Assembly: GCA_017610265.1 (NCBI GenBank)
Contig: JAFCCH010000005.1
Span: forward strand, 1 to 32,383
Direction of reading: 5' to 3'
From: Nitrososphaerota archaeon
GTDB lineage: Archaea; Iainarchaeota; Iainarchaeia; Iainarchaeales; GCA-2688035
Length of the DNA stretch: 32,383 nucleotides
Shown here: in pieces, positions 13,533-32,383 of the stretch
How positions within the stretch are numbered: the first letter of the stretch is position 1
Layout of the letters: the number at the start of each line of letters is the position of its first letter
Notes under the pieces: model-generated
Databases searched by the model: none
Told to the model about the DNA's origin: nothing
The model's input: only the letters and a program-made list of their open reading frames with translations
Program-made: the position numbers and the translations under genes

Positions 13533-13537
13533 TTTTT

Positions 13538-14795: not shown

Positions 14796-16385
14796 TTAAC
14801 TCCTTGTTACTGTTGAACTTGGCTTTTTTTGCGCTGTATCTGCTATCAATACTGGTTTTTGGTTTTTTGCAATCATCTGCAAAACTGTGTCCTGATCCCT
14901 ATAGAATCGGGCAATTATTTTTCCAACATCTCTTACATCCCTAACATTGAATTTTATAAGCCATTCAATTACCTTTTTCTTCTTTTCAAGCTCGTTTTGG
15001 ATTTCGCTCCTGCTAAATCCTGTGTGCAATGATAATTCGTCAAACATTCTAATGCTTTCACTGTGTTTTACTATCTTGTCGTCGCTTCCTCTCCATCTGT
15101 AAAGAATATTTGCTTTAACCTCTTCTTTTCCGCCTCTTCTTTCCGGAACATATTCTGCAACCTGAAGTATTCTTCTCACTCCAAGCCTTCTGTTTCTAAA
15201 CATTACAATATTTAAGTGGACAGATTCCAGCATTGTTGGAGGAATGTTTACCGGTGGATTAATGAACCGTCTAATTGTTTCATCGGCAGTGTTTGCGTGG
15301 AATGTTGTGTATACTGAGTGTCCTGTGTGCATTGCTTCAAACATTACTTCTGCTTCCTTTTGACGCCTTATCTCTCCAACAATTATTCTGTCAGGCCTCA
15401 TCCTCAAACTGTTTACCAATAGGTCAAGCATTGAAACCCCCCCTTTCCCCTCTGGATTTGGCTCTCTTGTGGTTAGAGGGACCCAGTGTAGGAATGGTGG
15501 AAGCATTAGCTCTCTTGTGTCCTCAATTGTTAGAATTCTGTGGTTTGGCTGGATAAATGGCATGCAAACATTCAGGAAACTGGTCTTTCCAGAACCTGTT
15601 CCCCCTGAAACAATCATGTTCATTTCATATTCCATTGTTGTCCAGATAAGAGCCATTACTTCGGTGTTTGCAGTCTTGCTGTTGATAAAGTCGGTTACTG
15701 TCCAGGGCTCTCTTCTAAATTTCCTGATTGTAATAGTGTTTCCTGCACTTGAGATTGGGAAAAGCGTTGCATTTGCCCTGTCTCCTGTTATAAGATGTGC
15801 ATCAAGTAAGGGGCTAAGAATAGTTATTTGTTTTCCAATCCTTCTTGCAATTATGTTACTGTAATTTTCTGTTTCTGATTCATCCTTCATTTGCACGTTT
15901 GAAAGAAGCCATCCATACTTTTTGTGATAAACCCAGACAGGGGTTTTACTTGTGTTTACAACAATTTCTTCCAGGTTTGGGTCTGTCAACAAGAACTCTA
16001 TTTTTCCAAGCCCCAACATTTCATTTAACAGGATTGCAATCAGAAGCATTTTTGTTTCTTCAGGAATGCCTGGCTCGGCTTCCAATAACTTGATTGCCTT
16101 TTCTTTGAATCTTTGCTTTGTTCTTGCAACAAACTTTGCTCCAATTTGCCTTTCTGACCTGATTGAGATGTCGCTTAAAATGCTTGTCCTAAGATTGTTC
16201 AGTAATGCAACAGTTCCTGGGCCATAAGATGGAAAATTTAGAAAATATCTTCTTACATAGGCCTGGTCATCGTCAATTATGTTTACTTCTATTTGCACCT
16301 TGTCTGATTCAACCCTGTAGGTGTCAACAACCTTCATCTTTTCAATATCTTCTTTATTCATTGCCGGAGCTTGTTCTTCTGCCAT
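14796..16385 (-). CDS. TadA/VirB11-type pilus assembly ATPase
   Basis: A 529-residue cytosolic secretion ATPase that powers pilin assembly. Visible motifs: Walker A GGTGSGKTS (261-269), the Asp box ILTIEDTREL (284-293), Walker B RIIVGEIR (333-340) and the His box GHSVYTTFHANT (355-366). The N-terminal domain (about 1-225) includes IRKFRREPWTV just before the ATPase core. Length is within the usual range for the archaeal GspE/ArlI group. It begins 15 bases after the scaffold gene and is followed at four bases by the first platform gene, the standard ATPase-platform order in archaeal type IV systems. The C-terminal 100 residues are helical and may contact the scaffold protein. Confidence 0.95.
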   Translation of the reverse strand: MAEEQAPAMNKEDIEKMKVVDTYRVESDKVQIEVNIIDDDQAYVRRYFLNFPSYGPGTVALLNNLRTSILSDISIRSERQIGAKFVARTKQRFKEKAIKLLEAEPGIPEETKMLLIAILLNEMLGLGKIEFLLTDPNLEEIVVNTSKTPVWVYHKKYGWLLSNVQMKDESETENYSNIIARRIGKQITILSPLLDAHLITGDRANATLFPISSAGNTITIRKFRREPWTVTDFINSKTANTEVMALIWTTMEYEMNMIVSGGTGSGKTSFLNVCMPFIQPNHRILTIEDTRELMLPPFLHWVPLTTREPNPEGKGGVSMLDLLVNSLRMRPDRIIVGEIRRQKEAEVMFEAMHTGHSVYTTFHANTADETIRRFINPPVNIPPTMLESVHLNIVMFRNRRLGVRRILQVAEYVPERRGGKEEVKANILYRWRGSDDKIVKHSESIRMFDELSLHTGFSRSEIQNELEKKKKVIEWLIKFNVRDVRDVGKIIARFYRDQDTVLQMIAKNQKPVLIADTAQKKPSSTVTRS

Positions 16386-16400
16386 TAAAATTCACTTTCC

Positions 16401-19145
16401 CTATTTTTTTCCTAACCTCTTTTGCTGTTGCTTCCACTTAATGTATTGCGGGTAAACAAGCTTCACTGCCCCTATAGGGGGGTAATTGAGCTTTATAAGC
16501 TTGCTTCTTTCAAGAATCTCTGCGCATTCTTTAACTTCTTTTGATGTCATTCCAAGCTGCTTTGCAACATCATTAAGATTTATTGTTCCCTTTACCTGCA
16601 CAAGGCCAAGCACCCTGTCAAAGGATGTTTCAATCTTGGCTTTTCTTATCTCTTTTTCTTTTCCAACAATCTTTTCCCTTTTTCTTGAAATAAGTCCTGT
16701 TTTAATGTCAAAGCCTGCACCTGGCCTGATAAGTTCTACTGCCGCACCACCCTTTTTCTCTTCGATAAGTTTTATTAGCTTTTGAAAGTCCTGAACAAGC
16801 CTTCCGCTGTCAAGTGTCTGAATTCTTGCTGCAAGAGCATTGTCTGGAATGTGGTATTTTTTAAGAAGCTCTCCAAGTCTTCCTTCAATCCTGTTAATTT
16901 GCTCCTGGTCAACATTGCTTCCCATTGCTTTTTGCTTTATTGCATTGTCAACAAGCTTGCTTACAGGTTGCTGTTCAGCCGGTTTTGCAAACGGAACCCT
17001 TTCAATAATCCTTTCCCTAATTCTTTCAATTACTCTTGGAGCCCCGCCTTTTTTTGGTGCAGCTTTCTCACTGGTTTTAACAGTTCCTTCTACAATAGTT
17101 TCAACAGGTTCTTCCACATATCTTTCTTCAGGAATGCGCCTTTTCCTTCTAGGCCTTTTTCTATCTTCTTCTGGCCATAAAGGGCTTTCTTCCCTTTCCC
17201 TAGGCCTTCTTGACCTGTATTCTTCTTCAGGGTATGGCCTCGGGCGCCTTTCCTCTGGATAAGTCCTTTCAGCAGACCTTGCTGTTGGTTTTTGCCAGAG
17301 TTGGAATCCTGGCTTTTGCTGAACAGGTCCGGCCGGCTGCATTGGCGGTGCAGGCCTTGCTACTGGAGCCGCAGGCGGTGCCTGTGCAACAGGCCTTGGC
17401 GCAGTTGCAAGCTTTTCTGCAATCTGCTGCAATGCCGCCGCAGTCCTTTCGGCAAACTTTTTCTCCTCAGCTTTTTCGCTTACTCTTTCAACCTCTTTTG
17501 CTGTAAGCTTTTTAATTGCGTCAATAGCATCCTTTCCAAGTCTGACATCAATTGGCATATTAGCCATTTTTTCAAGTGCCTTGGATGCCTTTGGGCTTAT
17601 TCCCACTGCTTGCTTTCGCATGGCTGTTGCCTCTTCCATAGCCTTTCTTACTTCTGGAGACAAATTTGCCTTTCTGTTTTCAGCAATTTTTTTCCTAATT
17701 CTCAATTCAGACAGTTTTGACTGGTACTCAAAAAGCTTTTCTCTGAACTGCTCAAAGTCAACCTTTCTTTTGTAGAATGCCAGCTCAAGGTTTTTAATCA
17801 GGTTTTGCTGCGCACTTATTTGGTCGTCAATATTAAGGCTGTCTTTCCAGGTAACGTTTGCCATTGATTGCTTTGTGGCAGTGGCAGCCATTTCGTCTGC
17901 AACAGTCCTCATTGCCTCAACAAGGTCAACAATTTCAGATTTTTTGTTGAACTCTGACGCGCCTTTCTTTCCTCCAATATCCTTTATTTTTGGAATTTTT
18001 ACTCCAATAGCTGCTACTTTTTTCTCAAGTTGTTTGCCCTTAGCTTCTTTTTCCCTTTCAATAAATTCAAGTGTCCTTATCTGGTTTTCAAGGTTTTTAA
18101 TTTTCTTTGTTAAATCCCGATCCTCTGCCATCAGCTGCTTTTTCTTTTTTCTTTCGTCTGTAGTAATTTCTCCCTTTTTCTCTTTTTTCCTGATGTGGTG
18201 CAGTTTTACTTTTTTCCTAATTCTCCAGCCTGACAACGCTGCTTTTTTGTGCTTTAAGGCATCGCCATACCAGCCTCTTGCTTTCCCAATCATTTTTTCA
18301 AGCTTGAGCTCTTTTTTAATTTCCTTTGGCGAAAGTTGCTTGATTTCCTCAGCACTTTTCTCTACAAGCCCTGGTTCTTTTTTAATAATTTTTTCAATAA
18401 TCTTTTCTTCTTCCGGCTTAAGGCCTTTTCCTGGTGCGGCTTTTTTTGCTTTTCCTGCTTTTTTTGAGGGCTTTGCTTTTTTTCCAACCTTCTTTTTCTC
18501 AGCCAAAGCTTTCTTTTTATCTTCCTTTTCCTGTTTTTTCTTTGCCTTTTCAACAGCCTTTAATGCGGTCTCGGCTTTCTTTTCCATCTCTTCTTCTTTT
18601 TTTACAGTCTCTAACGCGACCTTTGCCCTTTTGTCTAATTCAACTTCTTTGATTGCTCCAACAGCTACCTTTCCCCTTTTGTCAAGTTCAACATTTTCTA
18701 TTGCCTTCAACGCAGCTTCGGCGCGCTTGCTTTTCTCCATCTTTTCAATATACTTGTCAATGCCAATTGCCTTCACAGTCATTGCTTTTTCAGGGCTTAC
18801 CTTTTCAGGAATTTTTTTTTCAGGAATTTCTTTTTCAACCTTTTTCAAGCCTTTTTCAAGATGTCTTATTGATTCAACAAAAGTTTTCTTCCCAGATGGT
18901 TTTAGTGCAGTGGGCTTTTTTCCAGAAATTCCTTTTTTGGCTTCTGCTGCAGAAATAGCTATCTCTTTTTGAACCGCTTTTTTTTCCTTTGCTTTTTTGC
19001 CAATGCCTATTCTTTCAAGAAATGTTTTGATGCTATAGCCAAACCCTTTGCCTTTTTTGGGCTTTTTTGTTGTCTTGCTTTCGACAGCGGCAATGTACTC
19101 TTGCCAGGCTTTTTCTTCTTCATGGGCATGGTTTTTTGTGGTCAT
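16401..19145 (-). CDS. Large charged scaffold-like protein with C-terminal winged helix, pilus operon
   Basis: A 914-residue soluble protein of unknown family, first in the assembly operon. In order: a very Lys/Glu-rich helical region (1-400) including four imperfect repeats of 16-17 residues at 141-200 (unit like RAEAALKAIENVELDK); a helical region (435-570) with LELAFYKRKVDFEQFREKL; a Pro/Ala-rich linker (582-620); an Arg/Glu/Pro-rich segment (625-680); a helical part (700-800); and a winged-helix domain (838-905) with INLNDVAKQLGMTSKEVKE as the recognition unit. No membrane segment. By position it could be a cytosolic ring or adaptor, as ArlC/D/E are in archaella, but I see no clear homology. 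The ATG lacks a ribosome site and follows a leader hairpin. Confidence 0.8.
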   Translation of the reverse strand: MTTKNHAHEEEKAWQEYIAAVESKTTKKPKKGKGFGYSIKTFLERIGIGKKAKEKKAVQKEIAISAAEAKKGISGKKPTALKPSGKKTFVESIRHLEKGLKKVEKEIPEKKIPEKVSPEKAMTVKAIGIDKYIEKMEKSKRAEAALKAIENVELDKRGKVAVGAIKEVELDKRAKVALETVKKEEEMEKKAETALKAVEKAKKKQEKEDKKKALAEKKKVGKKAKPSKKAGKAKKAAPGKGLKPEEEKIIEKIIKKEPGLVEKSAEEIKQLSPKEIKKELKLEKMIGKARGWYGDALKHKKAALSGWRIRKKVKLHHIRKKEKKGEITTDERKKKKQLMAEDRDLTKKIKNLENQIRTLEFIEREKEAKGKQLEKKVAAIGVKIPKIKDIGGKKGASEFNKKSEIVDLVEAMRTVADEMAATATKQSMANVTWKDSLNIDDQISAQQNLIKNLELAFYKRKVDFEQFREKLFEYQSKLSELRIRKKIAENRKANLSPEVRKAMEEATAMRKQAVGISPKASKALEKMANMPIDVRLGKDAIDAIKKLTAKEVERVSEKAEEKKFAERTAAALQQIAEKLATAPRPVAQAPPAAPVARPAPPMQPAGPVQQKPGFQLWQKPTARSAERTYPEERRPRPYPEEEYRSRRPREREESPLWPEEDRKRPRRKRRIPEERYVEEPVETIVEGTVKTSEKAAPKKGGAPRVIERIRERIIERVPFAKPAEQQPVSKLVDNAIKQKAMGSNVDQEQINRIEGRLGELLKKYHIPDNALAARIQTLDSGRLVQDFQKLIKLIEEKKGGAAVELIRPGAGFDIKTGLISRKREKIVGKEKEIRKAKIETSFDRVLGLVQVKGTINLNDVAKQLGMTSKEVKECAEILERSKLIKLNYPPIGAVKLVYPQYIKWKQQQKRLGKK

Positions 19146-19294: not shown

Positions 19295-21436
19295 TTAAGG
19301 GCAGGACTCATATTCAATGCTGTAACTGCCTTGCTTGTTTAGAATAGTCTGGTTTGAAGCCAGGGCTGTAAAATTTACCCACCCCTCAATGGTTAAGTCT
19401 TTCATACCGTCAAGGTCTGTGGCATCTCCTACTGTGAGGAATTTGCCTGTTCCGTCAAACTGGTTTGATCCATCAATTTTTCCTGTAGTTGCTTCGCTTC
19501 CGGCAAAGCCTGTTGTGCTTGCATTGTTTGCTTTTGAGGTTGAGTCAAATCTCAAACCTGTTCCTTGTTCCTCTAAATGCTGAACCATTTGGAAAGAACT
19601 GTCCCAGACGCCAGTCACGTCTTGTTGGTTGCCTGCTGTCGCGTTTCCATAATATAAGAATATTGAGGTGTTAGCACTTCCATAAAGGCTTGTTTTTACC
19701 CATGCATCAAGTGCGCCTGTTGCATTGTTATATGTTTCAATTTCGTGGCTTAATGGAGTGGTACCGTCTCCTGATGTAAACATTATATCGTCTCCATCCG
19801 CCTGAACCTTTCCGCCTCCACTAATTAAGTCGGCGTCAATAACACTTATCAATACCGGAAAGTTTGTGAGGTTTGCTTCAACCAATGAACTGCCAATAAT
19901 TATTTTTTTCCTAAAGGTCCATCCAACAGGCCATTCAATATCACAGTCTGTATCAGCCGGGGCAGAACAGCTTGCAGGGCAGCATCCATCGCCTGGAGTG
20001 CACGCTGAAATTGTGTTCCATTCGCATACATTTGGAGCAGGCCCTGTATTGCATATAATATTTGTCTTGCAAGGGTCTGCATCATAAATTGTTTCACATT
20101 GGGAATTGTTGGTGCATTCGTCCGCTTCCGGACAATCTAAATCTCCTCCTACAAATGTGCATCCTGCAGGGCAACATCCGTCTGACCCATCATCGCACAG
20201 ATTTGGCGGGTAAGTGCAAACAATTGCGTTGCAAATATTTTGTGTGCAGGAATCACTGTCGTCACAATCTTCATTTATGGAACATCCTACTCCGACTCCT
20301 GGCGGATTCATTATTTGGAAATTGCACCCTGCTTCGGATGTGGCTCTGCATATGTCAAAGCCTGGTTTTTTTACGCCAAAGTCAAATGTTCCTGGCGGCA
20401 GTGAAACTTCATCTATCTCTTCCTTAAATGTTATTCTTGTTTTGAACGAGGAGTCAAGTGGTTCAGGTGGATTAACAGCATCCATTTGTTGTGCTCGTAG
20501 TTCAACGCTTAGTGTTTCAGTATTTGCTCCGTCCGGATTTATTAGGAATCCAACCCAGTTTTGCTTGGAAACAGTTTCTCCTGAATAATCTGTCTGAACC
20601 CATATTTTTCCGGTTGTTGTTGAATCAAAGTTCATTCCCACGGTCCATTGCCCGTTTACAAACGGTGCTGAATTGCAGTTTTCTCCGCTACAGTTGTCCC
20701 AAACAAATGTAACTTCTGCATAGGGGTCTATTCCATTTGGTGCTTCGTTGTTGCAATTGCTTGAACCGGTTCCGCCTCCTGCATCATAAACTCCTTCGCA
20801 CCATATCTCAAAACCGTTTTTAACGTGGATTTCTGTTTCCACTGTGTTAATTTTGTCAAAGGAGAAATCTGAGACACAGTCGTCTCCTAGGGCTGTGCCT
20901 TTGTTGAATTTTGCCTTGTCGTCAAGTATATCATTTATATTAATAGTTTCTGTTCCTTTGGCGACTGAGAATCGCATGCATTGGGGTAGTGTGATGTAAT
21001 TTATTTCAGGGTAGTCTCCTGCGCCTCCGCCCCATGCTCTATTTTGTATGCTGTGTTCTACGTCGACTTGTACTCCGCTTCCGCTGTTTTGTTTTGCGAA
21101 TATTGCGAATAGGTTCATTGTGTCGAATGCGTCGTTAAACCTGATCTCCTTTAGTGGCAGGTTTTGTTCTATTTCGAACCAGTTGCTTCCTGAGCTGAAG
21201 CCGTTGAATGGTGTTATTCTTCCGTATGTTGTGCCTGCGTATCCTTCTTTTGCTACGATCATTTGTTGTCTTAGGTTGTTGAATCTGTCGTTTACTTCGT
21301 TGAATGCAGTTTCTTCGATGATGTTTCTTTGTTGTTTTATTTCTGATCTGCTTATTGAGAAGTTTAGTGCGAGCAGTGTGCTAATTAGCAGAAATGCCAT
21401 GAAGGTTATGAATATTCCTTTTTTGTTCAGTTTCAT
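19295..21436 (-). CDS. Type c pilin-like protein with Cys-rich, DUF2341 and truncated LamG domains
   Basis: A 713-residue secreted protein. KKGIFITFMAFLLISTLLALN (residues 5-25) is a pilin-like leader and membrane helix, but no acidic residue follows the Gly. Residues 30-360 align end to end with the 336-residue type c paralogue (shared NNL, AWGG/RWGG, LPQC, RITF motifs). Added after it: two Cys-rich units (385-436 and 441-498, each ending in DGCCPAxC and D.DC), a DUF2341 domain (503-600, WTFRKKIII to SIFLYYGNAT), and the first part of a LamG-like jelly roll (615-710) that stops early. Many N-glycosylation sequons. Probably a surface adhesin at or near a pilus tip. AAGGT lies a few bases before the ATG. 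Its first 400 bases use codons differently from the rest. Confidence 0.85.
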   Translation of the reverse strand: MKLNKKGIFITFMAFLLISTLLALNFSISRSEIKQQRNIIEETAFNEVNDRFNNLRQQMIVAKEGYAGTTYGRITPFNGFSSGSNWFEIEQNLPLKEIRFNDAFDTMNLFAIFAKQNSGSGVQVDVEHSIQNRAWGGGAGDYPEINYITLPQCMRFSVAKGTETININDILDDKAKFNKGTALGDDCVSDFSFDKINTVETEIHVKNGFEIWCEGVYDAGGGTGSSNCNNEAPNGIDPYAEVTFVWDNCSGENCNSAPFVNGQWTVGMNFDSTTTGKIWVQTDYSGETVSKQNWVGFLINPDGANTETLSVELRAQQMDAVNPPEPLDSSFKTRITFKEEIDEVSLPPGTFDFGVKKPGFDICRATSEAGCNFQIMNPPGVGVGCSINEDCDDSDSCTQNICNAIVCTYPPNLCDDGSDGCCPAGCTFVGGDLDCPEADECTNNSQCETIYDADPCKTNIICNTGPAPNVCEWNTISACTPGDGCCPASCSAPADTDCDIEWPVGWTFRKKIIIGSSLVEANLTNFPVLISVIDADLISGGGKVQADGDDIMFTSGDGTTPLSHEIETYNNATGALDAWVKTSLYGSANTSIFLYYGNATAGNQQDVTGVWDSSFQMVQHLEEQGTGLRFDSTSKANNASTTGFAGSEATTGKIDGSNQFDGTGKFLTVGDATDLDGMKDLTIEGWVNFTALASNQTILNKQGSYSIEYESCP

Positions 21437-21530
21437 CTAATTACCTTATATGTAATAATCTATCACATTTATGAATATTCCTTTTTTGTTCAGTTTTATC
21501 TAATTGCCCCATATATAATAATCTATTACA
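21406..21530. repeat. Degenerate 62-bp tandem duplication at a gene junction
   Basis: 21406-21467 and 21469-21530 match at 56 of 62 positions, offset by 63. Each copy holds the end of the type b reading frame and the first codons of type c. In the copy at 21469-21530 the type c start codon has become ATA; in the other the type b tail contains a stop (VIDYYI then TAA). So each gene now uses only one copy. Confidence 0.88.
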
Positions 21531-24500
21531 TAAAACCTGTCTGCTGATTCAGACAGGCAGTTCATTATTGCTTGGTTATGCAGACTGCACTCGCCCACTT
21601 TTTGGTCGTTGTTTATTATTGCAATGACTGTTCCTGTGCAATCAGGAGGGTCCCCGGGGCAGTCGTTGAATTCAACATCTTCGACCCTTATCTTCCAATA
21701 GCTTGGCTGTGTACACACTCCCTCTTTCCAACTGCAAATTTCGCCTGGGCTTGGAGGATTTGGCATTCCAATAAACAAAATTCCGTCGTCAATGGCAATT
21801 TCTAAAGGTATTGGGCTGTCATCATCTTCTCCAATAAATGCGGTTGCAGAAGCTGCACTTGCCCTTAATTTTTGGTCAAAGTCTTTTTTGTAAAATGTAA
21901 CTGACAAAGGCTTTATTCCTGCAACTTCTGAAATGCTCACATCCTTAAAGCCATTGTTGTCTATCTCAAAGTTAACACTTAGATTTTCCGGGCCGCCAAT
22001 GGTGTTTCCTCCTGTAAATACAATGTTTAAGTCAGCGTATTTGAAGGGAAAGGTCTTGTGGCATCTTGTGTCCTCTGTGTCACACAAAATCTTTTCATCA
22101 AAGCTTCCGTCCCAGTTTACAGTGTCCAAAGTACTGTTGTCTGTGAATGTTGTTCCAAATGGCGGGAATGTAATTTCGTTAATCTCACAGTTTTCTCCGG
22201 TGCATGGTACTGGAATTTCTATTACTGCTGACCACCACTGGCCTGAAATAACATTTATTGCCTGGTCTTCAAATGTTAATATACTTGTTGTGGGATCCCA
22301 TTTAACAAAATCAGCTGGATTTGGGGCGGTAGAACATCCCGCAGTGCTGACAAAACCACCTGTTTCTGCCCAAGTGCCGCAGTCTGTTACATTTGGCGAA
22401 ATTCCTGAGGTGAACGGCAGTTCTATATTGACACTGCCCATTTCTTTTGCAATTTTTGATGCAATAAATTGGTATAATTGGTCTAATTCTGCTTGGTCTT
22501 CTGCAAAGTAATATTTTCCGCAGTTTACTCCGTCATCGCAGAATTCACTGTCCTCATCTTTTGCAACCTCTTCAAGAACTGTTTCATAACTTATTCCACC
22601 AGACCCTCCTACCCCGCTTTCAAGTGCGGCGCTGTCGGCAAATCCAATCACATAAATTTTTATATCCTGAAAATCCCTTGCTGTTTCGGCTTCTGCAATT
22701 GCATCCTGGGCCGCAGCCCATTCGCCACAGGCAGATCCATTAATGCAGATATTTGCCTTTCCGTCTGTCAACAAAACAATAAACTTTCCTGTGTCTTCGG
22801 CAACGCCTATTAATTCCTCTGCCGTTTTTTTAATTCCAAGTGCTAATCCTGTTGCCCCTGTTGGTTCAAGGACATTTAATGAGCTTTTTATTGCTTCTCT
22901 GTTGTCTGTAAGGCTTTGGTTTGCGTTTCCACTGTCAGAAAAGCTTACCAATCCAATTTTGTCAAGTGTTTGCCATTGGGCGTTGTCAATAAAGTCCCGC
23001 ATTGCCTTTTTAGCTGCGTCAATCCTTCTTAGATTCCAGCTTACTGTAAAGCTAGTAGGCTCCTCTGCCCATCCCTCAAGTTCGTATGGAGCTGCATTTA
23101 AGTTTGAGCCTCCGTTTGTAATTGTCCTTTCACAGTAGCCATCTTGACAGTAATATGCTGTCAAGTAGCTGGTTTCGAGAGGTGTGCTATTGCCCCCATT
23201 TGTCCTTACTCTAAACGCAGGGCTTCTATGACTTTGTGCTATAAAGTTTGCTTCTGAGCATGTGCCTAAATCTCCTGAATTGCTTACCTTTACCTTGAGT
23301 CCTTTGACATTGTCTCCTGAATTTATATTAAAAACATCCAGGTCTCCTGTTCCAAATGCCTCTTCGTCATTCCAGTTTGTTTTTGTAGGACAATTTGTTT
23401 CCACAGTAGTTGTACAGGCCACCCCGTTGCAGCCATTGCTTGAATTGTCAAGGGCTTTGTTTGGAATTGCTTTGTATCCTCCTCCATCTCCAATGGTATT
23501 GTCTACAACATAGTATGAAAAACTTACAGTTGAAAGGCTTATTTCATCATCACTCCATGCCCAAACCTCATAGTTTCCGCTTGGCTGGTCGCCTGTGCTG
23601 TAATATTTGTTTCTCTCACAAGCAGTGCTCCCAGTGCATGTTGCTATAGAAGAGACATCTGTTCCATCAGATTTCTTAAAGTAAAGCCTTGGCCTGCATC
23701 CACTAAGACTTGAATCATAGGTGCTACCATAGTACATATATCCATAAACATATTGGAATGTTTGGCCTGGTTCAAGTGTTGGTAGGTCCAAATCCCCAAT
23801 CTTTTTCCAGCCCCCTGTTGGAACACATTCGCTTCCGCTTCCTGTTGCTGTTCCTCCTGAAAGGGTATCAAGCTTATTGTTTACATTCAAATATCCTCGA
23901 AATCGCATGTAAACACTTGAAGTATATGGTGTGTTTGTCCATCCGTAAAGGTCCCATTCCTTATCTCCTGTATTGTGGCTTCCGTTTATTACTCCTTTAG
24001 TTGGATAAACATAATGCTGTGAATAATTTGTTGAGTCATACCTAAAATATTCTGTTCCGTCGGGTGCAACAAGCTTCAGTCTTGAAATTATTCTGCAGCT
24101 TCCTCCGTCATCTCTTGTGCCTGACCACCACATATATAATCGTTCACCCCATGTTCCAACAAACCTGTCAATAAAGTCGGCGTCTGCGGTAAAACTCCAT
24201 AAATGTGTCCAGTTTGTAAACTGGTTTTCGGTTGCCGCACTGTAACTTGTTGGGCAGTTGTTTGTTGTTACTATGCAGTCGCCTCCGTCGCAGGTGCTTC
24301 CGTTAACTGTTCCACTTGTTTCCTGGGCAAGTGCATCATATTCTGCCATGCTTCCGCTTATGTCCATGGCTAACATTATTGCAATTGGATCCCTTGACTG
24401 GTTTCTTGCCCTGATTGTAAGCTTTACTGTGTCGTCGCAGGAAATTTCACTTATTGCGCCGCCGCTAAGGTCTGTTACAGTTACATTTGTTTCAACATCT

Positions 24501-25144
24501 GCCTCCAGTTCCCCTTCAAATAAGGCCCTTAATGCCTGCTCTTCTTCTTCAAATTCAAATGTTTGTGGAACACAAACTGTTCCTCCTGTTTCCTCAATTA
24601 TAGGCTGTTTCATTGCAGCAATCTTTCGCCCGTGGGCAACCTCTTTTTCAGGAGAGGCTGATATGCCTGGATAACTTTCTTGTCCTGTTTCTTCATCAAA
24701 ACATTCATCAAAAACCGATTCAATAGTGTCATAAGTAGCTCCCGCGCCTAAAAAATCTGCGTATGCGGTTCTGCAGGCAGCCAAATTTTCTTTGGCTCGG
24801 TATTCTGTTATAACTATATTGAGTTCGGCGTTTGCAGGCAGTAATTTTTTGACCTCGTCATAAATGCCTGTTCCCTGGTTATTTGTCAAAGCTCTCTGGC
24901 TTAACTCGTTGTCGGCAAGGTTTTTTGCAAGAATGCCGCTGTTTTCCAAAACTGAAAAGCTATCGTTGGCAGCCTGCTTTAGGCTTGGGGCAAGCGGAGT
25001 CATGTCTGACTGGGGTGTTTGTATTCCTAACCCAATAAATGTCAGTACACCAATAGTTAGCATTGTTGCAAGCAGGGCGTCAACTGAAACAGCAAACCCT
25101 CTTTTACCTATCCCGATATAAAGTAAATTCTGCAATTGTTGCAA
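21500..25144 (-). CDS. Type b giant pilin-like vWA protein with split vWA domain
   Basis: 1214 residues. KRGFAVSVDALLATMLTIGVL (14-34) is a pilin-like signal and helix with Asp at +6. A region to about 250 resembles its paralogue. The von Willebrand A domain begins at 254 with IMLAMDISGSM (MIDAS Asp261, Ser263, Ser265) and resumes at 706 with RIDAAKKAMRDFID, then LVSFSD, GATGL (Thr765) and LLTDG (Asp794), so metal binding is intact. Between lie about 435 residues that look like three beta-sandwich units ending EWDLYGW, NYEVWAW and YELEGW. The C-terminal 300 residues are beta-rich with paired Cys. Surface adhesin is likely. TTG at 25144 abuts the AAGGAGG; TTG at 25135, nine bases after it, may be the true start. 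It overlaps the upstream gene by 41 bases. Confidence 0.88.
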   Translation of the reverse strand: MQQLQNLLYIGIGKRGFAVSVDALLATMLTIGVLTFIGLGIQTPQSDMTPLAPSLKQAANDSFSVLENSGILAKNLADNELSQRALTNNQGTGIYDEVKKLLPANAELNIVITEYRAKENLAACRTAYADFLGAGATYDTIESVFDECFDEETGQESYPGISASPEKEVAHGRKIAAMKQPIIEETGGTVCVPQTFEFEEEEQALRALFEGELEADVETNVTVTDLSGGAISEISCDDTVKLTIRARNQSRDPIAIMLAMDISGSMAEYDALAQETSGTVNGSTCDGGDCIVTTNNCPTSYSAATENQFTNWTHLWSFTADADFIDRFVGTWGERLYMWWSGTRDDGGSCRIISRLKLVAPDGTEYFRYDSTNYSQHYVYPTKGVINGSHNTGDKEWDLYGWTNTPYTSSVYMRFRGYLNVNNKLDTLSGGTATGSGSECVPTGGWKKIGDLDLPTLEPGQTFQYVYGYMYYGSTYDSSLSGCRPRLYFKKSDGTDVSSIATCTGSTACERNKYYSTGDQPSGNYEVWAWSDDEISLSTVSFSYYVVDNTIGDGGGYKAIPNKALDNSSNGCNGVACTTTVETNCPTKTNWNDEEAFGTGDLDVFNINSGDNVKGLKVKVSNSGDLGTCSEANFIAQSHRSPAFRVRTNGGNSTPLETSYLTAYYCQDGYCERTITNGGSNLNAAPYELEGWAEEPTSFTVSWNLRRIDAAKKAMRDFIDNAQWQTLDKIGLVSFSDSGNANQSLTDNREAIKSSLNVLEPTGATGLALGIKKTAEELIGVAEDTGKFIVLLTDGKANICINGSACGEWAAAQDAIAEAETARDFQDIKIYVIGFADSAALESGVGGSGGISYETVLEEVAKDEDSEFCDDGVNCGKYYFAEDQAELDQLYQFIASKIAKEMGSVNIELPFTSGISPNVTDCGTWAETGGFVSTAGCSTAPNPADFVKWDPTTSILTFEDQAINVISGQWWSAVIEIPVPCTGENCEINEITFPPFGTTFTDNSTLDTVNWDGSFDEKILCDTEDTRCHKTFPFKYADLNIVFTGGNTIGGPENLSVNFEIDNNGFKDVSISEVAGIKPLSVTFYKKDFDQKLRASAASATAFIGEDDDSPIPLEIAIDDGILFIGMPNPPSPGEICSWKEGVCTQPSYWKIRVEDVEFNDCPGDPPDCTGTVIAIINNDQKVGECSLHNQAIMNCLSESADRFYVIDYYIWGN

Positions 25145-26312
25145 CCTCCTTGAATGTTACTGGTCTTCTTACTGATACTTTCATTTTGTTGTCTCCGATT
25201 GGCTCTTCCCCTGACCAAAGAAGATCTCCTTTTTTATTTTTTACAATGGAGTCATCTTCAGGGTTTATTAGCCTAAAATAGTAGTCTGTTGATCCAATTA
25301 AAAGTTTCTGTCTGACAAATGCCTTGTCCCATTCCTGTAAAGCCCTTATTTCGCTCTGGTCAAGGGCTGTATCATAGATTCTTATCTCTTCCAGGTCTCC
25401 TGCAAATGGCCCTGCAGGGTCTGTTATCTTTTGGTTTTTGCCAATCCAGACCTTTTGTATACCAGGGTTGTAGGTTTCTCCAGGCTCTGTAAATTCATAT
25501 TCTGCCTTTAGGTCTCCGTCAAAATAGGTTTTCATCCACTGTGAATCCCATGTTCCAACAAGATGGTGCCATTGTCCGTCGGTAATGTCTGAGCCAGTAT
25601 AGCAGGTTTTTTTTTCTTCTACAGACGTAAAGACATGAAAGCATGCTTCACTTGAGCTTGCGCTCAAATGCCATCCTCTCAATCCTACAGTTCCACGCCT
25701 GCTTACAAGAGTTTGTGCAGCAATGTTTCCAGTCTTAAACCATACTGAAACAGTTCCTGTATGTTGGTAACCTAAAACAAGCTGCGCGCTTGTTTCATTG
25801 TCGTTGAAGCCAAAGTCAAAACCTGACTGTTCGTCAACTTCAAGGTATGCTGCTCCGTTAAATGTTCTTCCCTGTGTTTTCCATAAACCATCAACATAGT
25901 TTCCGCCTCCCACAAGAAATGCTGCATTATTGTAGTTTCCGCTTCCGTCTTCTGTTGAACTGTTAAAATGCCATTCTCCCATAAGATTGTCAGTTAGCCG
26001 CCCGGAACGCCAGATAAACTGGCTTGTTTTTTCCTCGTTTAGGACCCTGTCCCTTTTGCTTAATCCGATTGAGTTAACATCTAGCTGGCCTGCCTTTTCC
26101 CAGTTTGATGGCGAGCCAGAACTTTTTATTAACGTGTCCAAAGACTTTTCGGCCATTATTCTCATTTCCTGTTCCAACAGCCTTTTTTCCGCTTCAATAG
26201 TCTTGTTTGTCCAAATCCAGGTAATGCCTCCTCCAAGTAATAGGAATATCAGAACGGCTGCCATTAGGTCTACCATCATGCTTTGGCCTTTTTCGTTTGG
26301 CTTACTCAACAA
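25104..26312 (-). CDS. Type a pilin-like protein carrying a LamG domain
   Basis: 402 residues. NEKGQSMMVDLMAAVLIFLLLGGGI (6-30) is a class III-like prepilin signal with Gln at +1 and Asp at +6. Residues 50-100 (LDTLIKSSGSPSNWEKAG, IGLSKRDRVL) and 330-402 (LLIGSTDYYFRL, FKEVATIAEFTLY) match the shorter type a protein at the right edge of the window. Between them is a complete LamG/concanavalin-like jelly roll (105-325: GEWHFNSSTEDGSGNYNN, TVSVWFKTG, DGQWHHLVGTWD, FAGDLEEIRIYDTAL), a sugar- or protein-binding fold. The start is TTG at 26312 without a clear ribosome site, overlapping the previous stop by 11 bases, which suggests coupled translation. Confidence 0.88.
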   Translation of the reverse strand: MLSKPNEKGQSMMVDLMAAVLIFLLLGGGITWIWTNKTIEAEKRLLEQEMRIMAEKSLDTLIKSSGSPSNWEKAGQLDVNSIGLSKRDRVLNEEKTSQFIWRSGRLTDNLMGEWHFNSSTEDGSGNYNNAAFLVGGGNYVDGLWKTQGRTFNGAAYLEVDEQSGFDFGFNDNETSAQLVLGYQHTGTVSVWFKTGNIAAQTLVSRRGTVGLRGWHLSASSSEACFHVFTSVEEKKTCYTGSDITDGQWHHLVGTWDSQWMKTYFDGDLKAEYEFTEPGETYNPGIQKVWIGKNQKITDPAGPFAGDLEEIRIYDTALDQSEIRALQEWDKAFVRQKLLIGSTDYYFRLINPEDDSIVKNKKGDLLWSGEEPIGDNKMKVSVRRPVTFKEVATIAEFTLYRDR

Positions 26313-26733
26313 TTGTGATTTTATAGAAGGTCACCCCCTGTGGAAGCTTTTTTACATCATATCTTTCCCCTTGCCCGAGGTCAAATCCTGTTGAATCCTT
26401 GGTAAAAACTTCGGTAACCGGGTTTCCGTCGTCATCTTTTTGGGCCAGCCCGATGTATCTACAGCTTATTGTGCCAGTGACTATACTGCCTTTTTCTATG
26501 TGAACTGCTTTTTCAAGCCCTCTTAGAATTGACTGGCTGTAGGCCTGGTTTGAATTAAAATTTGAAATTGTTGCTGAGATTGCCTGACATTTTATTAAAT
26601 CCTGCTGTATTTCTCCAAATCTTTCTGTTTCAACATTTCTTTGGACCATTGTAACTGTTGTTGCAAGCATCATTCCAAGTAGCACAACCGCAGTTATCAT
26701 TACCTCAAGCGAGGTCTGGCCTTTTCTGTCCAT
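26302..26733 (-). CDS. Small pilin-like protein with class III signal (type e)
   Basis: 143 residues beginning MDRKGQTSLEVMITAVVLLG: leader MDRKG, cleavage before Gln, Glu at +5, then a hydrophobic helix to about residue 26. The remainder is a small mixed domain with two Cys (DLIKCQAIS, ISCRYIGLA). Start choice: ATG at 26733 has AGGTG four bases upstream and lies one base after the stop of the previous gene; a TTG at 26748 would add five residues. Probably a minor pilin of the same filament or tip complex; no specific function is visible. Confidence 0.82.
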   Translation of the reverse strand: MDRKGQTSLEVMITAVVLLGMMLATTVTMVQRNVETERFGEIQQDLIKCQAISATISNFNSNQAYSQSILRGLEKAVHIEKGSIVTGTISCRYIGLAQKDDDGNPVTEVFTKDSTGFDLGQGERYDVKKLPQGVTFYKITIVE

Positions 26734-26734
26734 T

Positions 26735-27235
26735 TTACACCTTTTCAAGCATTATTTTTTTCTTGTCAGCGGTCCAGCTTACTCTTACAACATATCCGCT
26801 TCCACTGTACTTGTTGAGGGCCCCGTTCATTAATGCCATTTCCCCGAGGTTTTCCCAAATTTTTGCTTTTGTTTCCCTGAGCATCTGGTTTTCTCCACTT
26901 AGCAAATTAACATTTATTGAAATTGCGCTGAACGAAACATTGTCGTCATAGTCTCCGCCGCATTCTGTTAAAGTCCCCTGGTTTGCAGCGTCACCTAAGA
27001 GGTTGACGCATTTGTGCACTATCTTTAATTCTTTCATCTCATTTGGAAATGAAATAGTTACAAATCTTGTGTTTCCTTCTCCGCTTGTGTAAACATCGTC
27101 CACCGCATTGGCAATTCTTGCGATTGCTTCATTTGCCTGTGCAACTCTTATGTTTTGGTTGTAGTTTATGAACGAAAAAGTGAAGATTATTGCAACAGAA
27201 ATAAGTATGAATGCTGTTAGCACAAGATATTCCAT
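26735..27235 (-). CDS. Small pilin-like protein, leader apparently missing (type d)
   Basis: 166 residues starting MEYLVLTAFILISVAIIFTFSF, which matches the mature start of archaeal pilins (xxLEYLVL) but without a basic leader. Upstream in frame is GLFYA, reading back to a stop with no standard start codon, so the gene either lacks a leader or uses an unusual start such as ATT. The rest is a small domain with two Cys (VHKCVNLL, LTECGGD). It overlaps the end of the type c gene by 19 bases and has no ribosome site, so translation is likely coupled. Minor pilin by context. Confidence 0.75.
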   Translation of the reverse strand: MEYLVLTAFILISVAIIFTFSFINYNQNIRVAQANEAIARIANAVDDVYTSGEGNTRFVTISFPNEMKELKIVHKCVNLLGDAANQGTLTECGGDYDDNVSFSAISINVNLLSGENQMLRETKAKIWENLGEMALMNGALNKYSGSGYVVRVSWTADKKKIMLEKV

Positions 27236-28227
27236 TGCGTAAAATAAACCAATTCTGGCTTTTGGTCAAATGTAATGTTTAGGTCTACATAGATCGGTGT
27301 TGTTGGCAGAGTATTTGAAATAACTATTGGAAACAGGTCTCCAACCTTTTCACACCCAATTTTTATCTTGAATTCATCGCTTGCATTCGCCGGAATTATC
27401 AAAGTGTCCTCTGTGCCAACAAGGGTGTAGGCTGGGTCGAAATGGGCTGTCCTTACTGCGATTCCTGGCTGGGCTTCATTCCTTGTAATATGGCAGCCTG
27501 CACCTGGGCATTGTGGATTAATTTCATTTATTGTGATTCTTACATAGGGTAATGTGTTTAGCGGGTCAAAGGCGTCAGTGCTGCTTGCAAGCGTTCCTTG
27601 TAGCGGAGGCGTTTGATCAATATAGGCTGTTGTGTTAACAGTAATATTTATGTCAACTATATTCAGGTCTGCGTAGTCAAATCCTCCACTGCATCCAAAT
27701 TCTGAATCAGCAAGTTCCCTCAAAATCATCATATTCAGGTCTGGGCAACATGCGTTTATGTCATACAAAAGGCATTGGGGCAGAATGGCATAATTGAGGT
27801 CTGCAAAGTCTTCTACTCCTCCCCATCTACTGTCCTGTATTGCGTTTGTTGCAATATTTAAGTCTGCAGTGGCATTTTTGTCTGCAAAAATGCTGTAAAT
27901 GTTTAATGCGTCAACATAAGCTGTTAGCATTGAAGTTTTTACAGGAATGCGCTGGCTTAGGATGACTGCATTTTCGTTAAAGTCATATTGAAACGGCATC
28001 GGCCTTTGCTGCACGTCTTTTGCAGGTCCTTCTTTGTTCAATGAAACAACCTCTTCGTAGAGATTGTTGAACGAATTGTTTACCTTGTTGAACGCAACTT
28101 CGTCAATGTACTTCCTTTCCTGTTTGTAGTTTGTTGTTTCAGCTACATCATGTAATGTAAGGATGCTTACAACAAGGAGAAAAACCATAAATGTTATAAA
28201 TACTCCTTTTGAATTCACTTTTCCCAC
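27217..28227 (-). CDS. Type c pilin-like protein, short paralogue
   Basis: 336 residues with SKGVFITFMVFLLVVSILTLHDVAE (6-30) as signal and membrane helix, lacking the acidic residue normally found at +5. It aligns with the N-terminal half of the 713-residue protein: FNKVNNSFNNLYEEV, RWGG, LPQCLLYDI and a closing VDLNITFDQ strand, after which it stops. Several N-glycosylation sequons and paired Cys indicate an exported, beta-rich domain. Its GTG start lies within the last codons of the type b gene (11-base overlap); a second GTG at 28218 is possible. By analogy with GspK or PilX, which also lack the +5 Glu, it may occupy the pilus tip; this is inference. Confidence 0.82.
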   Translation of the reverse strand: MGKVNSKGVFITFMVFLLVVSILTLHDVAETTNYKQERKYIDEVAFNKVNNSFNNLYEEVVSLNKEGPAKDVQQRPMPFQYDFNENAVILSQRIPVKTSMLTAYVDALNIYSIFADKNATADLNIATNAIQDSRWGGVEDFADLNYAILPQCLLYDINACCPDLNMMILRELADSEFGCSGGFDYADLNIVDINITVNTTAYIDQTPPLQGTLASSTDAFDPLNTLPYVRITINEINPQCPGAGCHITRNEAQPGIAVRTAHFDPAYTLVGTEDTLIIPANASDEFKIKIGCEKVGDLFPIVISNTLPTTPIYVDLNITFDQKPELVYFTQWNILC

Positions 28228-31200
28228 GCCCAGTAATCAAGTGTGTAAATAAAGGTCTTTGGAATAGCGCAATTAACTGCCACGTAATTATTGTAAGAAC
28301 ATTCTGCAACATCCTGGTCTTTGTTTACCCAAATGCAGATATAGCCGCTGTTAGCAATATTTGTGCTTTTTTCAACGCTTGTGCTGAGTCCGTCTGCATT
28401 AGTTCCATAGGATGAATCCAAAACATCTGTGAAGTTTTCAAAGTCCACGTTTATAAGGGGATCTGCACACGCAGTCAGGAAACTGCTACCCTCATAAAAA
28501 TTTATTGTCGGGCTGATTGTTGCAAGGTCTATGTCAAGATAACCCTTGTTTGAAATCTTATATTTGAGGGCAGTATCACTTGTTCCAAAAAACTGGCCGC
28601 TTATAAATTCCAGTTCCAGGTCATTGAAGTAGAATTCTCCACCTGAACTATATTTCATCGGCCAGAAGAAGGCATCTTTAGGCTCTGTTTTTAAGGCATA
28701 GCCAACCTGCGTATTTTCCGGTGGAAAAAAAACATCAGTGCCGCCGATAAATTCTGTGTCACATCCAGGATAATTACATGGAATTATTACGTCAAAACTG
28801 CCGGTCCAGCCGTTTTTAATATTCAGGTCCTCATATGTCAAAACGCCCCCTGCCCAGCTTGCAGGGCTTGGATTAAAATTGCTTAATTGCAATCCACTTA
28901 ATCCATCAAATTGCATTGAAATGTCTGTTGCACTTTTGTCAGGCATTCTTCCTGCAAGTTGTGCAATTCTTTCGGCAATTATATTATAGACATCCAACAA
29001 TGCCTCAGGGTCTGTTATATGGTGGTAGGAACCGCAGTCACTGTCTCCAATGTCGGGGCAGTATGCGTCAAGTGCAATATTTTCCATCTGCACATCATCA
29101 ACGTCTCCTCCAAATCCAATACTAAAAATGTAAACTTCATTTGTTTTTGCTCTTGCGACCTGGGTATCAATAAAATCTTGCGTTCCAAAATCACTTTGCC
29201 CGTCTGCAAGAAGGATAATAAACTGCACTGCATCAGCCCTTCCATTGCCACTGTCCAATATTTCATCAAGCGCCTCGTCAAGGCCTAAATGCATTGGCGT
29301 TCCACCTTCTGAGAGGATTCCGTCAATGGCTGTGCTAATGGTTGCCTTGTTTGGAATATCAGCGTCTGCCAAAAAATGGTCCAAACTTGAATTGCCATTT
29401 CCATAGCTTACCACTCCAAGCTTGTCTTCAGGGCTTTCCCAATCTTCAAAGTTGACAAACTGTTTTGCGCTGTTTCTTGCAAAATTCATTTTTGTTCCAA
29501 AAATCCTGTCTGCGGTTATAAGACCATAGCTCGTGGCCATGTAAAAATAATTTGGCCCCAAATTGAATTTGTAAAAGTCGTAGGGTGAATAAAATGTTTC
29601 AAGAACTATTGCATTTGGCGGATCACTTGCGTCAACAACATGTATCCCGTCGGCCATTGCTCCCAATCCAATGTCTGCAATTGTGTAAACATTTGTGTCA
29701 TATATAGCCACGTCCTCGATTGTTTCTCCTCCATGTAGTGTTGTTGAAATGCTTGGGCTTGCCTTGTTTGATATATCTATTATCCTTAAGCCGCCGTCTT
29801 CGTCTGCAAGATAAGCATAGTTGTTGCTGTCAACAACAACACCTTGCGGATTTGTTGTTGCGACAAATCCTGTCATACTTGGGCTTGCCTTGTCTGAAAC
29901 ATCAACTATCCACAATCCTTCTGTGCCGTCACCGCCTGCCCTGTCTGCAATATAGGCATAGTCTCCTGAAACAACAACGTCTTCTGGCTCGTCAATTAAG
30001 CCAGAACCTGTGTCATAAAGATTGCTTAAAGTTGTCCAATTGTCTGGATTTGGATGTGACTTGTCTATTATGACAAGGCCTCCAACCATAAAATCATATT
30101 TGTATATCCTGAATCTGCCGTCCTCGTAACTGCTTTGGAAAGGAGGTTCAACAGCGGTGCAAACATCTGAAGTATTGCACCTGTAAATGGCACCACCTGT
30201 GTACTGGTCTGTGCTCCTTGCCCTGCTTCCAAGTCTGTAATAATCGCCTGTGTCAAGGTCTGTTGTGGTTAAGACAATGTAATATGTTTGTCCAATATTT
30301 ACGTCAACAGGCCATGGGAAATCAATAGTTTCCCATCTATAGCCATTGCTTCTCACGCTTGCCATTGGAAAGTCAACAAAGGTTCCGTTTAAATCAGGGC
30401 CGTCAATGCTTGCCCTTATATGGATAGTCAAATCCCCTACAGGATTTCCTCTCCTATAAAGATACAATCTTACTCCGTCAATCCTGTCAATGTCTGAAGT
30501 AAATGATTGGGAAATCCATTTCCTTGCTGAATCATATCCAATCATTTCATAATTGTTCCTGCTTCCAGTCATTGAGGCGCCGTAAACCTGTGTTGGTGTT
30601 GGATTCACTGTACCGGCAGCGGCAACATATATGTAGTCACCTTCAACAAAAAGGCTTCTTGCAGTTGTCATGCTTCCAACTGTCTGTTCCAATGCCATTG
30701 TTCCCTTGTTTAAGACAGTGACTCCTGTGTCGTCGTTTGCAACATAGACATATGTGTCGTCAACAAATAATCCACGTGCATCATCAATGCTTCTCCTTTG
30801 CCCTGTATAGCTTAATCCACCGTTGTCCTGATTTACATCCATTTTGTAGACATAATCTGTTGTTCCAACAAATGCATTGCCGCTTGCACTGTCAAAAAAG
30901 GTTGATCTTTCGGTTCCGGTTGCACTATATCTTCCCATCCAGCTCATGCTTCCGCTTCTGTCCATCGAAATCATTATGTCAACAGGATTCTTTCTTCCAC
31001 CGCTTTCGGCTGAAACAGTAAAACTGAAATTGCTTGTTTTGTCACATTCCATTGGCAAATTTGTCATGCTTGAATCAAAGAAAAAGCACGGGCCGCCAAT
31101 TATTGCAAGTGGGCTGTTTACGTCCTCACCCCAGCTTGTGCCATCAGAAACCCTGACTTTGCATTTAAAGCGGTTGCCGTCATTGTCAATTGTTATTGCT

Positions 31201-31967
31201 TGTGTTGCGGCAGTGTTTCCTGTGAAAGTCCAGCCGTCTCCCGAAGCTGCTTCCTCATCATACCTGTACCATTGATATTCTACTGCTGTTTCAGGATCGC
31301 TTTCTGCATCATAATATTCGTAACAGCATCGCATTGTGTCAGTTGTTTCAGGGCAGGGATTTCTTTCACTCGGGCAGCTTACTCCAATTGTAATATTTAC
31401 ATCCCTTGCCTCAGGCGGTTCTCCTGCAAAGGATGCCGAAAACCATTTGTCTTTTGCCGCAACTGCGCCTTCTATAGCACAGTCACCTGGCTCTTTTTTT
31501 ATAAAGATCTTTCTGCCGTGAAATATCTCCTTGTCTGTTGGAAGGTTTTCTCCTATTGTAAAGAACTCATTTGAATCGTTTGGAAAGCAGCTTTCATATG
31601 TTTGATCTGCCCTGCAGGTGCTTATTGGATCGTCGAGCGTTGATTCAAATTGCAGCATCTGAACTTTAAAGCCGATCGTGTTCGGCAAAAGGGCTTTGAG
31701 TTTTTCCTCAATAGGCGTTACGTTTCCGTCTTCAATGGCGCGCATTATTGTCCCTGTATTGTCCATTGCGGCAATAGCATCGTCAACAATTTGTGTTGAC
31801 TCAATGTTTGCCTGAGTTATTGGCATTTGCCCAATTGGCTGAACAGAGATAAATGTTATCATTGCAATAAACAACACCATTGCAAGCAAGGCGTCTATTG
31901 AAATCGCAACTCCTTTATCGTTGCTGGAAATAAAATGTGAACCTGGCAATTGCTTCTTCCCCCTCAT
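28215..31967 (-). CDS. Type b giant pilin-like vWA protein with nested beta-propeller
   Basis: 1250 residues. DKGVAISIDALLAMVLFIAMI (17-37) is a pilin-like signal with Asp at +6. An Ig-like unit lies at about 205-290. The vWA domain opens at 328 with IMISMDRSGSM (MIDAS Asp336, Ser338, Ser340) and resumes at 826 with NFARNSAKQFV, VVSYGNG, EGGTP (Thr890) and LLADG (Asp922). The roughly 480 residues between form about seven LVIVD-type propeller blades (for example GLWIVDVSDKASP and GLRIIDISNKASP). The third blade is itself interrupted by a beta-sandwich (about 460-620). A probable adhesin or calcium-dependent sensor at the pilus tip. ATG at 31967 lacks a ribosome site; TTG at 31949, nine bases after GAGGGGG, may be the true start. 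Overlaps the upstream gene by 53 bases. Confidence 0.9.
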   Translation of the reverse strand: MRGKKQLPGSHFISSNDKGVAISIDALLAMVLFIAMITFISVQPIGQMPITQANIESTQIVDDAIAAMDNTGTIMRAIEDGNVTPIEEKLKALLPNTIGFKVQMLQFESTLDDPISTCRADQTYESCFPNDSNEFFTIGENLPTDKEIFHGRKIFIKKEPGDCAIEGAVAAKDKWFSASFAGEPPEARDVNITIGVSCPSERNPCPETTDTMRCCYEYYDAESDPETAVEYQWYRYDEEAASGDGWTFTGNTAATQAITIDNDGNRFKCKVRVSDGTSWGEDVNSPLAIIGGPCFFFDSSMTNLPMECDKTSNFSFTVSAESGGRKNPVDIMISMDRSGSMSWMGRYSATGTERSTFFDSASGNAFVGTTDYVYKMDVNQDNGGLSYTGQRRSIDDARGLFVDDTYVYVANDDTGVTVLNKGTMALEQTVGSMTTARSLFVEGDYIYVAAAGTVNPTPTQVYGASMTGSRNNYEMIGYDSARKWISQSFTSDIDRIDGVRLYLYRRGNPVGDLTIHIRASIDGPDLNGTFVDFPMASVRSNGYRWETIDFPWPVDVNIGQTYYIVLTTTDLDTGDYYRLGSRARSTDQYTGGAIYRCNTSDVCTAVEPPFQSSYEDGRFRIYKYDFMVGGLVIIDKSHPNPDNWTTLSNLYDTGSGLIDEPEDVVVSGDYAYIADRAGGDGTEGLWIVDVSDKASPSMTGFVATTNPQGVVVDSNNYAYLADEDGGLRIIDISNKASPSISTTLHGGETIEDVAIYDTNVYTIADIGLGAMADGIHVVDASDPPNAIVLETFYSPYDFYKFNLGPNYFYMATSYGLITADRIFGTKMNFARNSAKQFVNFEDWESPEDKLGVVSYGNGNSSLDHFLADADIPNKATISTAIDGILSEGGTPMHLGLDEALDEILDSGNGRADAVQFIILLADGQSDFGTQDFIDTQVARAKTNEVYIFSIGFGGDVDDVQMENIALDAYCPDIGDSDCGSYHHITDPEALLDVYNIIAERIAQLAGRMPDKSATDISMQFDGLSGLQLSNFNPSPASWAGGVLTYEDLNIKNGWTGSFDVIIPCNYPGCDTEFIGGTDVFFPPENTQVGYALKTEPKDAFFWPMKYSSGGEFYFNDLELEFISGQFFGTSDTALKYKISNKGYLDIDLATISPTINFYEGSSFLTACADPLINVDFENFTDVLDSSYGTNADGLSTSVEKSTNIANSGYICIWVNKDQDVAECSYNNYVAVNCAIPKTFIYTLDYWAWEK

Positions 31968-32383
31968 AGTTTACAATTCTCTTTGTGCTTACTTCAAGGC
32001 CTTTTGACCTCACTCCTGTGTCAGGTTTGCCTGTATTTGTAATCACAGTTCCTTCGGAATCGCTTATTTCGAAATAATAGTCGTAACCGATTAATAAAAG
32101 CGACTTGATTGCGTTGTAATCCGCACTTCTGTAGGTTGCTGCCCACGCTGTAAACTTTTGGACTTTTCCGCTTTCAAGAGCCCTGTCTCTTTTTGCAAGG
32201 CCGATTGTTGTAACGCTGTCAATGCTTTTTTCTTCCCAGTTGTTTGGCTCGCCGTCTGTTCTGACAAGCATGTCAAGGGTTTGCGCGCTCTTGCTTTGAA
32301 GTTCGTTCAAAAGGCTTTTGTCTGAAACAGTTTGGTTGCCGTTTGCAATAAGAGTCATGCTTGTATTCAACACAAGCAAAAAA
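31915..32383 (-). CDS. Type a pilin-like protein, short paralogue, cut by window edge
   Basis: The open frame continues through the right edge; the visible part begins FLLVLNTSMTLIANG, the end of a membrane helix that matches IFLLLGGGITWIWTN of the 402-residue protein. It shares the flanking segments LVRTDGEPNNWEEK, IGLAKRDRAL and LLIGYDYYFEI with that protein but has only about 20 residues where the other carries a LamG domain. Its last 53 bases overlap the type b start. The prepilin leader must lie just outside the window. A TTG inside the visible frame is not the real start. Confidence 0.8.
   Translation of the reverse strand, partial: FLLVLNTSMTLIANGNQTVSDKSLLNELQSKSAQTLDMLVRTDGEPNNWEEKSIDSVTTIGLAKRDRALESGKVQKFTAWAATYRSADYNAIKSLLLIGYDYYFEISDSEGTVITNTGKPDTGVRSKGLEVSTKRIVNYEGEEAIARFTFYFQQR

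Follow-up and report, generated by a model that had tools for sequence, protein, structure and literature searches.

A five-gene pilin-like module in two diverged copies beside a type IV pilus motor: a candidate adhesive tip in a Diapherotrites archaeon

Bacterial minor-pilin tip complexes are capped by a subunit without Glu5 (PMC10191384, PMC9934059). The GspH-I-J-K and FimU-PilVWX sets are operon encoded and include one such subunit, the proposed cap, which in the H-I-J-K order is the last (K), and in the PilVWX system the adhesin PilY1 is a separate protein. The Streptococcus sanguinis PilA-PilB-PilC tip complex (PMC9934059, PMC8179133) is built from modular pilins, with a von Willebrand factor A (vWA) domain grafted onto PilB and a ConA-like lectin onto PilC, and with a third subunit that lacks Glu5. 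Tad systems (TadE-TadF-TadG/CpaL) combine a TadA-type motor and paired platform proteins with a pilin-vWA fusion containing an intervening region; CpaL is the TadG orthologue, and its vWA domain is split by an insert (PMC12607857). Several exchangeable tips occur within one cell in the Kil system of Myxococcus (PMC12075869).

Archaeal counterparts include the Clade 1 type IV pili (T4P) of Methanococci and Thermococci, with at least five minor pilins, to which Makarova et al. (2016) assigned a position near the base on the model of minor archaellins, proposing only DUF2341 adhesins at the tip (PMC4858521). Pilus islands of DPANN archaea contain unrecognised signal-bearing proteins beside FlaI/TadC-type genes that were taken as diverse pilins (Makarova et al., 2019; PMC6393860), and the part of that study drawn on here flags these islands without a defined module, gene order, or position. 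Our literature search found no account of the module described below, although this does not prove that none exists.

The DNA analysed (the window) is a 32,383-nucleotide stretch of contig JAFCCH010000005.1, from a 1.28-Mb bin that is 82% complete; the source lineage is Ca. Diapherotrites (Iainarchaeota). Its minus strand encodes, in order of transcription, A1, B1, C1, D, E, A2, B2, C2, a coiled-coil protein, a T2SSE ATPase, and two T2SSF platform proteins (Table 1). An earlier reading of the window alone (the original prediction) had given the order as a, b, c, d, e, a', b', c', with overlapping ends throughout, upstream of an ATPase and platform operon. Both the order and the location of the motor genes are confirmed (the coiled-coil, ATPase, and platform genes lie downstream, from 19145 to 12516), and the overlap was slightly overstated: the six junctions from A1 to B2 overlap by 53, 13, 19, 14, 11, and 41 nt, respectively, but B2 and C2 are separated by 63 nt, and C2 and the coiled-coil gene by 149 nt. 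Two local irregularities emerge from comparison with relatives. The C1-D junction (27217-27235) is without the C-terminal ∼18 residues of C1, the spacer, the D start, and the D class III signal that are seen in sister genomes, reflecting either an assembly error or a real deletion, and the LamG domain of C2 ends early (19295-19450), whereas that of its L139 orthologue is complete.

Table 1. Features of the window; a slash in an N-terminal motif follows the [KR][GAS] site
Feature	Coordinates	Strand	Description
A1	31915-32382	-	Pilin A of module 1 without a grafted domain; 5' end outside contig; paralogue of A2, E 1.7e-11
B1	28215-31967	-	Module 1 pilin-vWA protein, 1250 aa; VWA 1.6e-14, LVIVD 1.6e-22; N-terminus KG/VAISIDALLA
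B1 vWA insert	29481-30947	-	Residues about 341-829, directly after DxSxS metal site; contains LVIVD beta-propeller repeats
C1	27217-28227	-	Pilin-like, 336 aa, without acidic residue at N-terminal helix start; proposed cap; paralogue of C2
D, module 2	26735-27235	-	Small pilin; start and signal apparently deleted in assembly; orthologue KA/QIAMEYL in L099, L105, L107
E, module 2	26302-26748	-	Small pilin, KG/QTSLEVM
A2	25104-26312	-	Pilin A with inserted LamG; A profile on residues 5-100 and 314-400; Laminin_G_3 5.8e-22
A2 LamG/ConA-like insert	25347-25781	-	Residues 178-322
B2	21500-25144	-	Module 2 pilin-vWA protein, 1214 aa; VWA_2 1e-11; KRG/FAVSVDALLA
B2 vWA insert	23015-24346	-	Residues about 267-710
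C2	19295-21436	-	Pilin C with C-terminal extension: DUF2341 (9.5e-8), truncated LamG start; C profile on residues 2-371
Coiled-coil protein	16401-19145	-	Weak winged-helix match at C-terminus; conserved between C and ATPase
TadA/FlaI-like assembly ATPase	14796-16385	-	Pfam T2SSE 1.7e-35
TadC-like platform protein 1	13538-14791	-	T2SSF 4.1e-14
TadC-like platform protein 2	12516-13541	-	T2SSF 4.3e-15
Candidate major pilin	11864-12316	+	KG/QAALEYLMTYGWAL; convergent with operon; many related loci have a similar gene next to platform protein 2

The repeating unit is five genes, D-E-A-B-C. That the a, b, and c pairs share segments is borne out by blastp paralogy beyond chance, with E values of 1.7e-11 plus 8e-6 for A1/A2, 1.3e-19 (vWA to C-terminus) plus 3.8e-13 (N-terminus) for B1/B2, and 3.1e-31 for C1/C2. 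The order in the window stands, but its D and E are part of the second copy. Because the contig end falls inside A1, whose orthologues are complete at loci L099, L105, and L107, the window has neither D1 nor E1, and the run appears to begin with a. One sister genome (G003) has the full arrangement D-E-A-B-C-D-E-A-B-C followed by the coiled-coil, ATPase, and two platform genes, and another (G004) begins likewise; such complete tandem pairs rule out an a-b-c triplet as the unit. Gene maps of relatives have D-E-A-B-C, then coiled-coil, ATPase, platform 1, and platform 2, with a single module copy in most other genera. Each of the six genomes in the genus of the window has two copies of C, and the C tree splits all C1 copies, together with the upstream copy of G014, from all C2 copies in 100% of bootstrap trees; the duplication therefore predates the genus, and both copies have been retained.

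Class III-type N-termini ([KR]G ahead of a hydrophobic helix) are present in E, A2, B1, B2, C1, and C2; that of A1 lies beyond the contig end, and the D signal is absent from the assembly and present in orthologues. The Class_IIIsignal profile matched 13 of 41 proteins scanned. Counted from the [KR][GAS] site, D (51/56) and E (47/49) have the acid of the mature helix at +5, A (59/62) and B have it at +6, and this +6 position leaves the cleavage site or packing of A and B uncertain. Far from lacking a cleavable or membrane N-terminus, which the original prediction had named as contrary evidence, 57 of the 58 B proteins have a hydrophobic pilin-type N-terminus with this acid at +6, ruling out a PilY1-like non-pilin secreted adhesin: the archaeal adhesin, unlike PilY1, is part of a pilin. 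C has no acid in any of 25 proteins, nor within +1 to +10 in any of 66 members of a broader set that includes genes placed solely by position after B, for which the site score penalised charged residues and the sites look unambiguous by eye in nearly all cases.

B1 and B2 each have a vWA domain by Pfam, which upholds the expectation of one vWA giant per module. In the aligned set an insert, 138 to 747 residues long (some boundaries being alignment dependent), splits the B vWA domain directly after DxSxS, so that B combines a pilin and a vWA domain with an intervening region after the metal site, as described for TadG/CpaL (PMC12607857). LVIVD repeats are present in 8/20 B proteins, and LamG is seen in A (window, L107, and L109), B (L107 and L101), and C (L139), with that of A2 interrupting the A profile at residues 100/314; these extra domains (LamG and beta-propeller) enter at fixed sites. 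Compared with the B1 of the window, orthologues within the genus are 48 to 58% identical in the scaffold and 27 to 47% in the insert, where 27% is a lower bound, the automatic scaffold/insert split being wrong for G005 B1 and G013 B2. Each module has a single bulky subunit, either B (vWA) or D and never both: among 49 modules with both genes, B is large and D small in 34, D is large and B small in 13, both are large in none, and neither is large in two, one of which has its B cut by a contig end. The Fisher p of 4e-10 for this size exclusion makes it look more certain than it is, since related loci cannot be counted as independent.

The scaffold model of a short B (L044; pLDDT 76 and pTM 0.44, and hence trusted at the domain level only) matches vWA proteins, including the tip adhesins Mfa5 (1.2e-11) and RrgA (3.3e-8) and the PilB minor pilin (5.4e-7). 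No homology to PilABC was detected outside vWA, and the two differ further in that the archaeal unit has five genes rather than three and its vWA is itself split by an insert. The AlphaFold2 model of C1 (pLDDT 89 and pTM 0.80) has an N-terminal helix at 6-61 (55 residues) and then a beta head; its fold had no PDB match at E ≤ 0.001, GspK included, and a sequence search against solved structures gave no match for A or C. C is last in D-E-A-B-C as K is in H-I-J-K, but C as a GspK homologue is supported by neither fold nor sequence. The TadE and Tad Pfam models, which are weak even in controls, have no match at the module genes, with the best matches elsewhere below cut-off; Tad membership by Pfam is rejected, and the five subunits also set the module apart from Tad and Kil tips. 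The best reading is one of likeness, family membership aside, in which the module would resemble the PilABC, HIJK, and TadEFG tips in its working.

The machinery is that of an archaeal type IV filament locus, with a T2SSE-type ATPase, a T2SSF/TadC platform, class III prepilin N-termini, and a prepilin peptidase in the source genome (three Peptidase_A24 matches). An archaellum is ruled out, the ATPase scoring 283.5 bits with the FlaI model against a curated cut-off of 550. The coiled-coil protein varies from about 170 to 990 aa in relatives, is usually encoded directly upstream of the ATPase, and is possibly a cytoplasmic adaptor. The source genome also has a second pilus locus (L154; contig C68, 2747-10999) of the D-large form, composed of D710, E130, A169, B149, a C-like 303, an ATPase, and two platform proteins.

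A search of related genomes for conserved triplets near TadA/TadC recovered the D-E-A-B-C order beside ATPase and platform genes in Iainarchaeota, in the Nanoarchaeota phylum, and in other DPANN archaea. The C family is present in 46/87 Iainarchaeota genomes. The A family is present in 100/194 genomes of the phylum to which a Woesearchaeota contig belongs (Nanoarchaeota) and in 94/116 of the phylum that includes a Micrarchaeota contig. Among 20 Nanoarchaeota-phylum loci picked by A alone, 18 have an ATPase within 15 kb, so the genes do not occur mainly without pilus genes; the gene immediately upstream is E in 17, the one before that is D in 17, and the gene immediately downstream is B in 18. 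The two exceptions have <10 kb fetched downstream, L178 lying on a 4.4-kb contig and L174 showing no ATPase across its 20 kb of fetched sequence. In the C-selected Iainarchaeota set, the ATPase is within 15 kb of A on the same fetched stretch in 18 of 31 A loci; of the remaining 13, nine have <10 kb downstream, the A1 of the window has its ATPase at 15.5 kb, the L107 contig ends before the motor genes, and L128 and L142 are candidate orphan modules. L128, L142, and L174, with no ATPase in the fetched region, count against a pilus-tip explanation. Three records filed as Falkowbacteria or Chloroflexota metagenome-assembled genomes (L038, L039, and L040) bear the same archaeal operon, with ATPase identity of 79 to 81%, and are probably mislabelled. 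Weak matches of A to DUF7287 (12/24 members, best 7e-4) and of D to DUF7289 (best 0.002), all below cut-off, suggest that the module may reach Halobacteria; DUF7287 occurs in Haloferax volcanii.

With moderate confidence, we favour a reading in which a five-subunit minor-pilin set, present as two diverged copies, feeds one archaeal T4P machine, giving a C-capped tip with a modular vWA adhesin and with alternative tips. This retains much of the original prediction of a minor-pilin tip presenting adhesins, in that the proteins are pilin-like and motor linked, with one vWA giant per module and a good likeness to bacterial tips; it departs from it in the five-gene unit and in an adhesin carried on a pilin rather than on a PilY1-like protein. 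We infer a tip position, an adhesion role, a stacking order, and an alternation of modules. The prepilin peptidase would cleave D, E, A, B, and C, and the cleaved minor pilins would assemble first, as a tip or initiation complex. C would be the cap, because it lacks an acid that could pair with the N-terminus of an overlying subunit, and below it would come B and A, then E and D, and then the major pilin. The adhesin would be the B vWA domain, held at the tip together with its large insert; its binding target would be tuned by LamG and other domains on A, B, or C, and the two modules would form two alternative tips on pili of one motor, much like the exchangeable Kil tips.

It is possible, but on balance unlikely, that the two modules instead join to build a single larger tip with as many as ten subunits, a reading that competes solely with the alternation of tips. 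The modules are adjacent and both are kept in 6/6 genomes of the genus, as a joint tip would lead one to expect, but most relatives have one module, and C1 and C2 are old, separate groups. Rather improbable is a basal or anchoring collar made up of the five pilins, from which only the largest domains reach outward; this would accord with the basal position of minor pilins in the Clade 1 model and with the proposal, in the same paper, that bacterial TadG is a membrane anchor (PMC4858521), but a C without an acidic residue fits a first subunit that no other overlies, and adhesin-type domains are poorly placed at a base. Least probable is that the giants serve as adhesins on the cell surface or as S-layer-like proteins, exported by the motor (as a pseudopilus or secretion system), and are not in a long filament, for although they reach about 1900 aa and some modules are without a nearby ATPase, a candidate major pilin adjoins the motor in many loci and the entire pilin set is conserved in order with it.

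Returning to the C-capped tip, a further and doubtful extension is that D-E-A-B-C is an archaeal tip-initiation complex ancestral to the bacterial TadE/F/G tips, in which the acid positions (+5, +5, +6, +6, and none) would set the stacking of D-E-A-B-C from base to tip and a single slot would take an interchangeable adhesin.

The location of minor pilins in archaea and the way in which pilus assembly begins there are unsettled, and the module bears on both. It gives a clear prediction of which subunit is the cap and of the likely site at which binding specificity changes, and many unannotated DPANN proteins become nameable by their position and N-terminal pattern. Cultivated DPANN members live attached to hosts (PMC11291902), and D-E-A-B-C, with its order conserved over several DPANN phyla, is a compact and testable candidate for an attachment tip.
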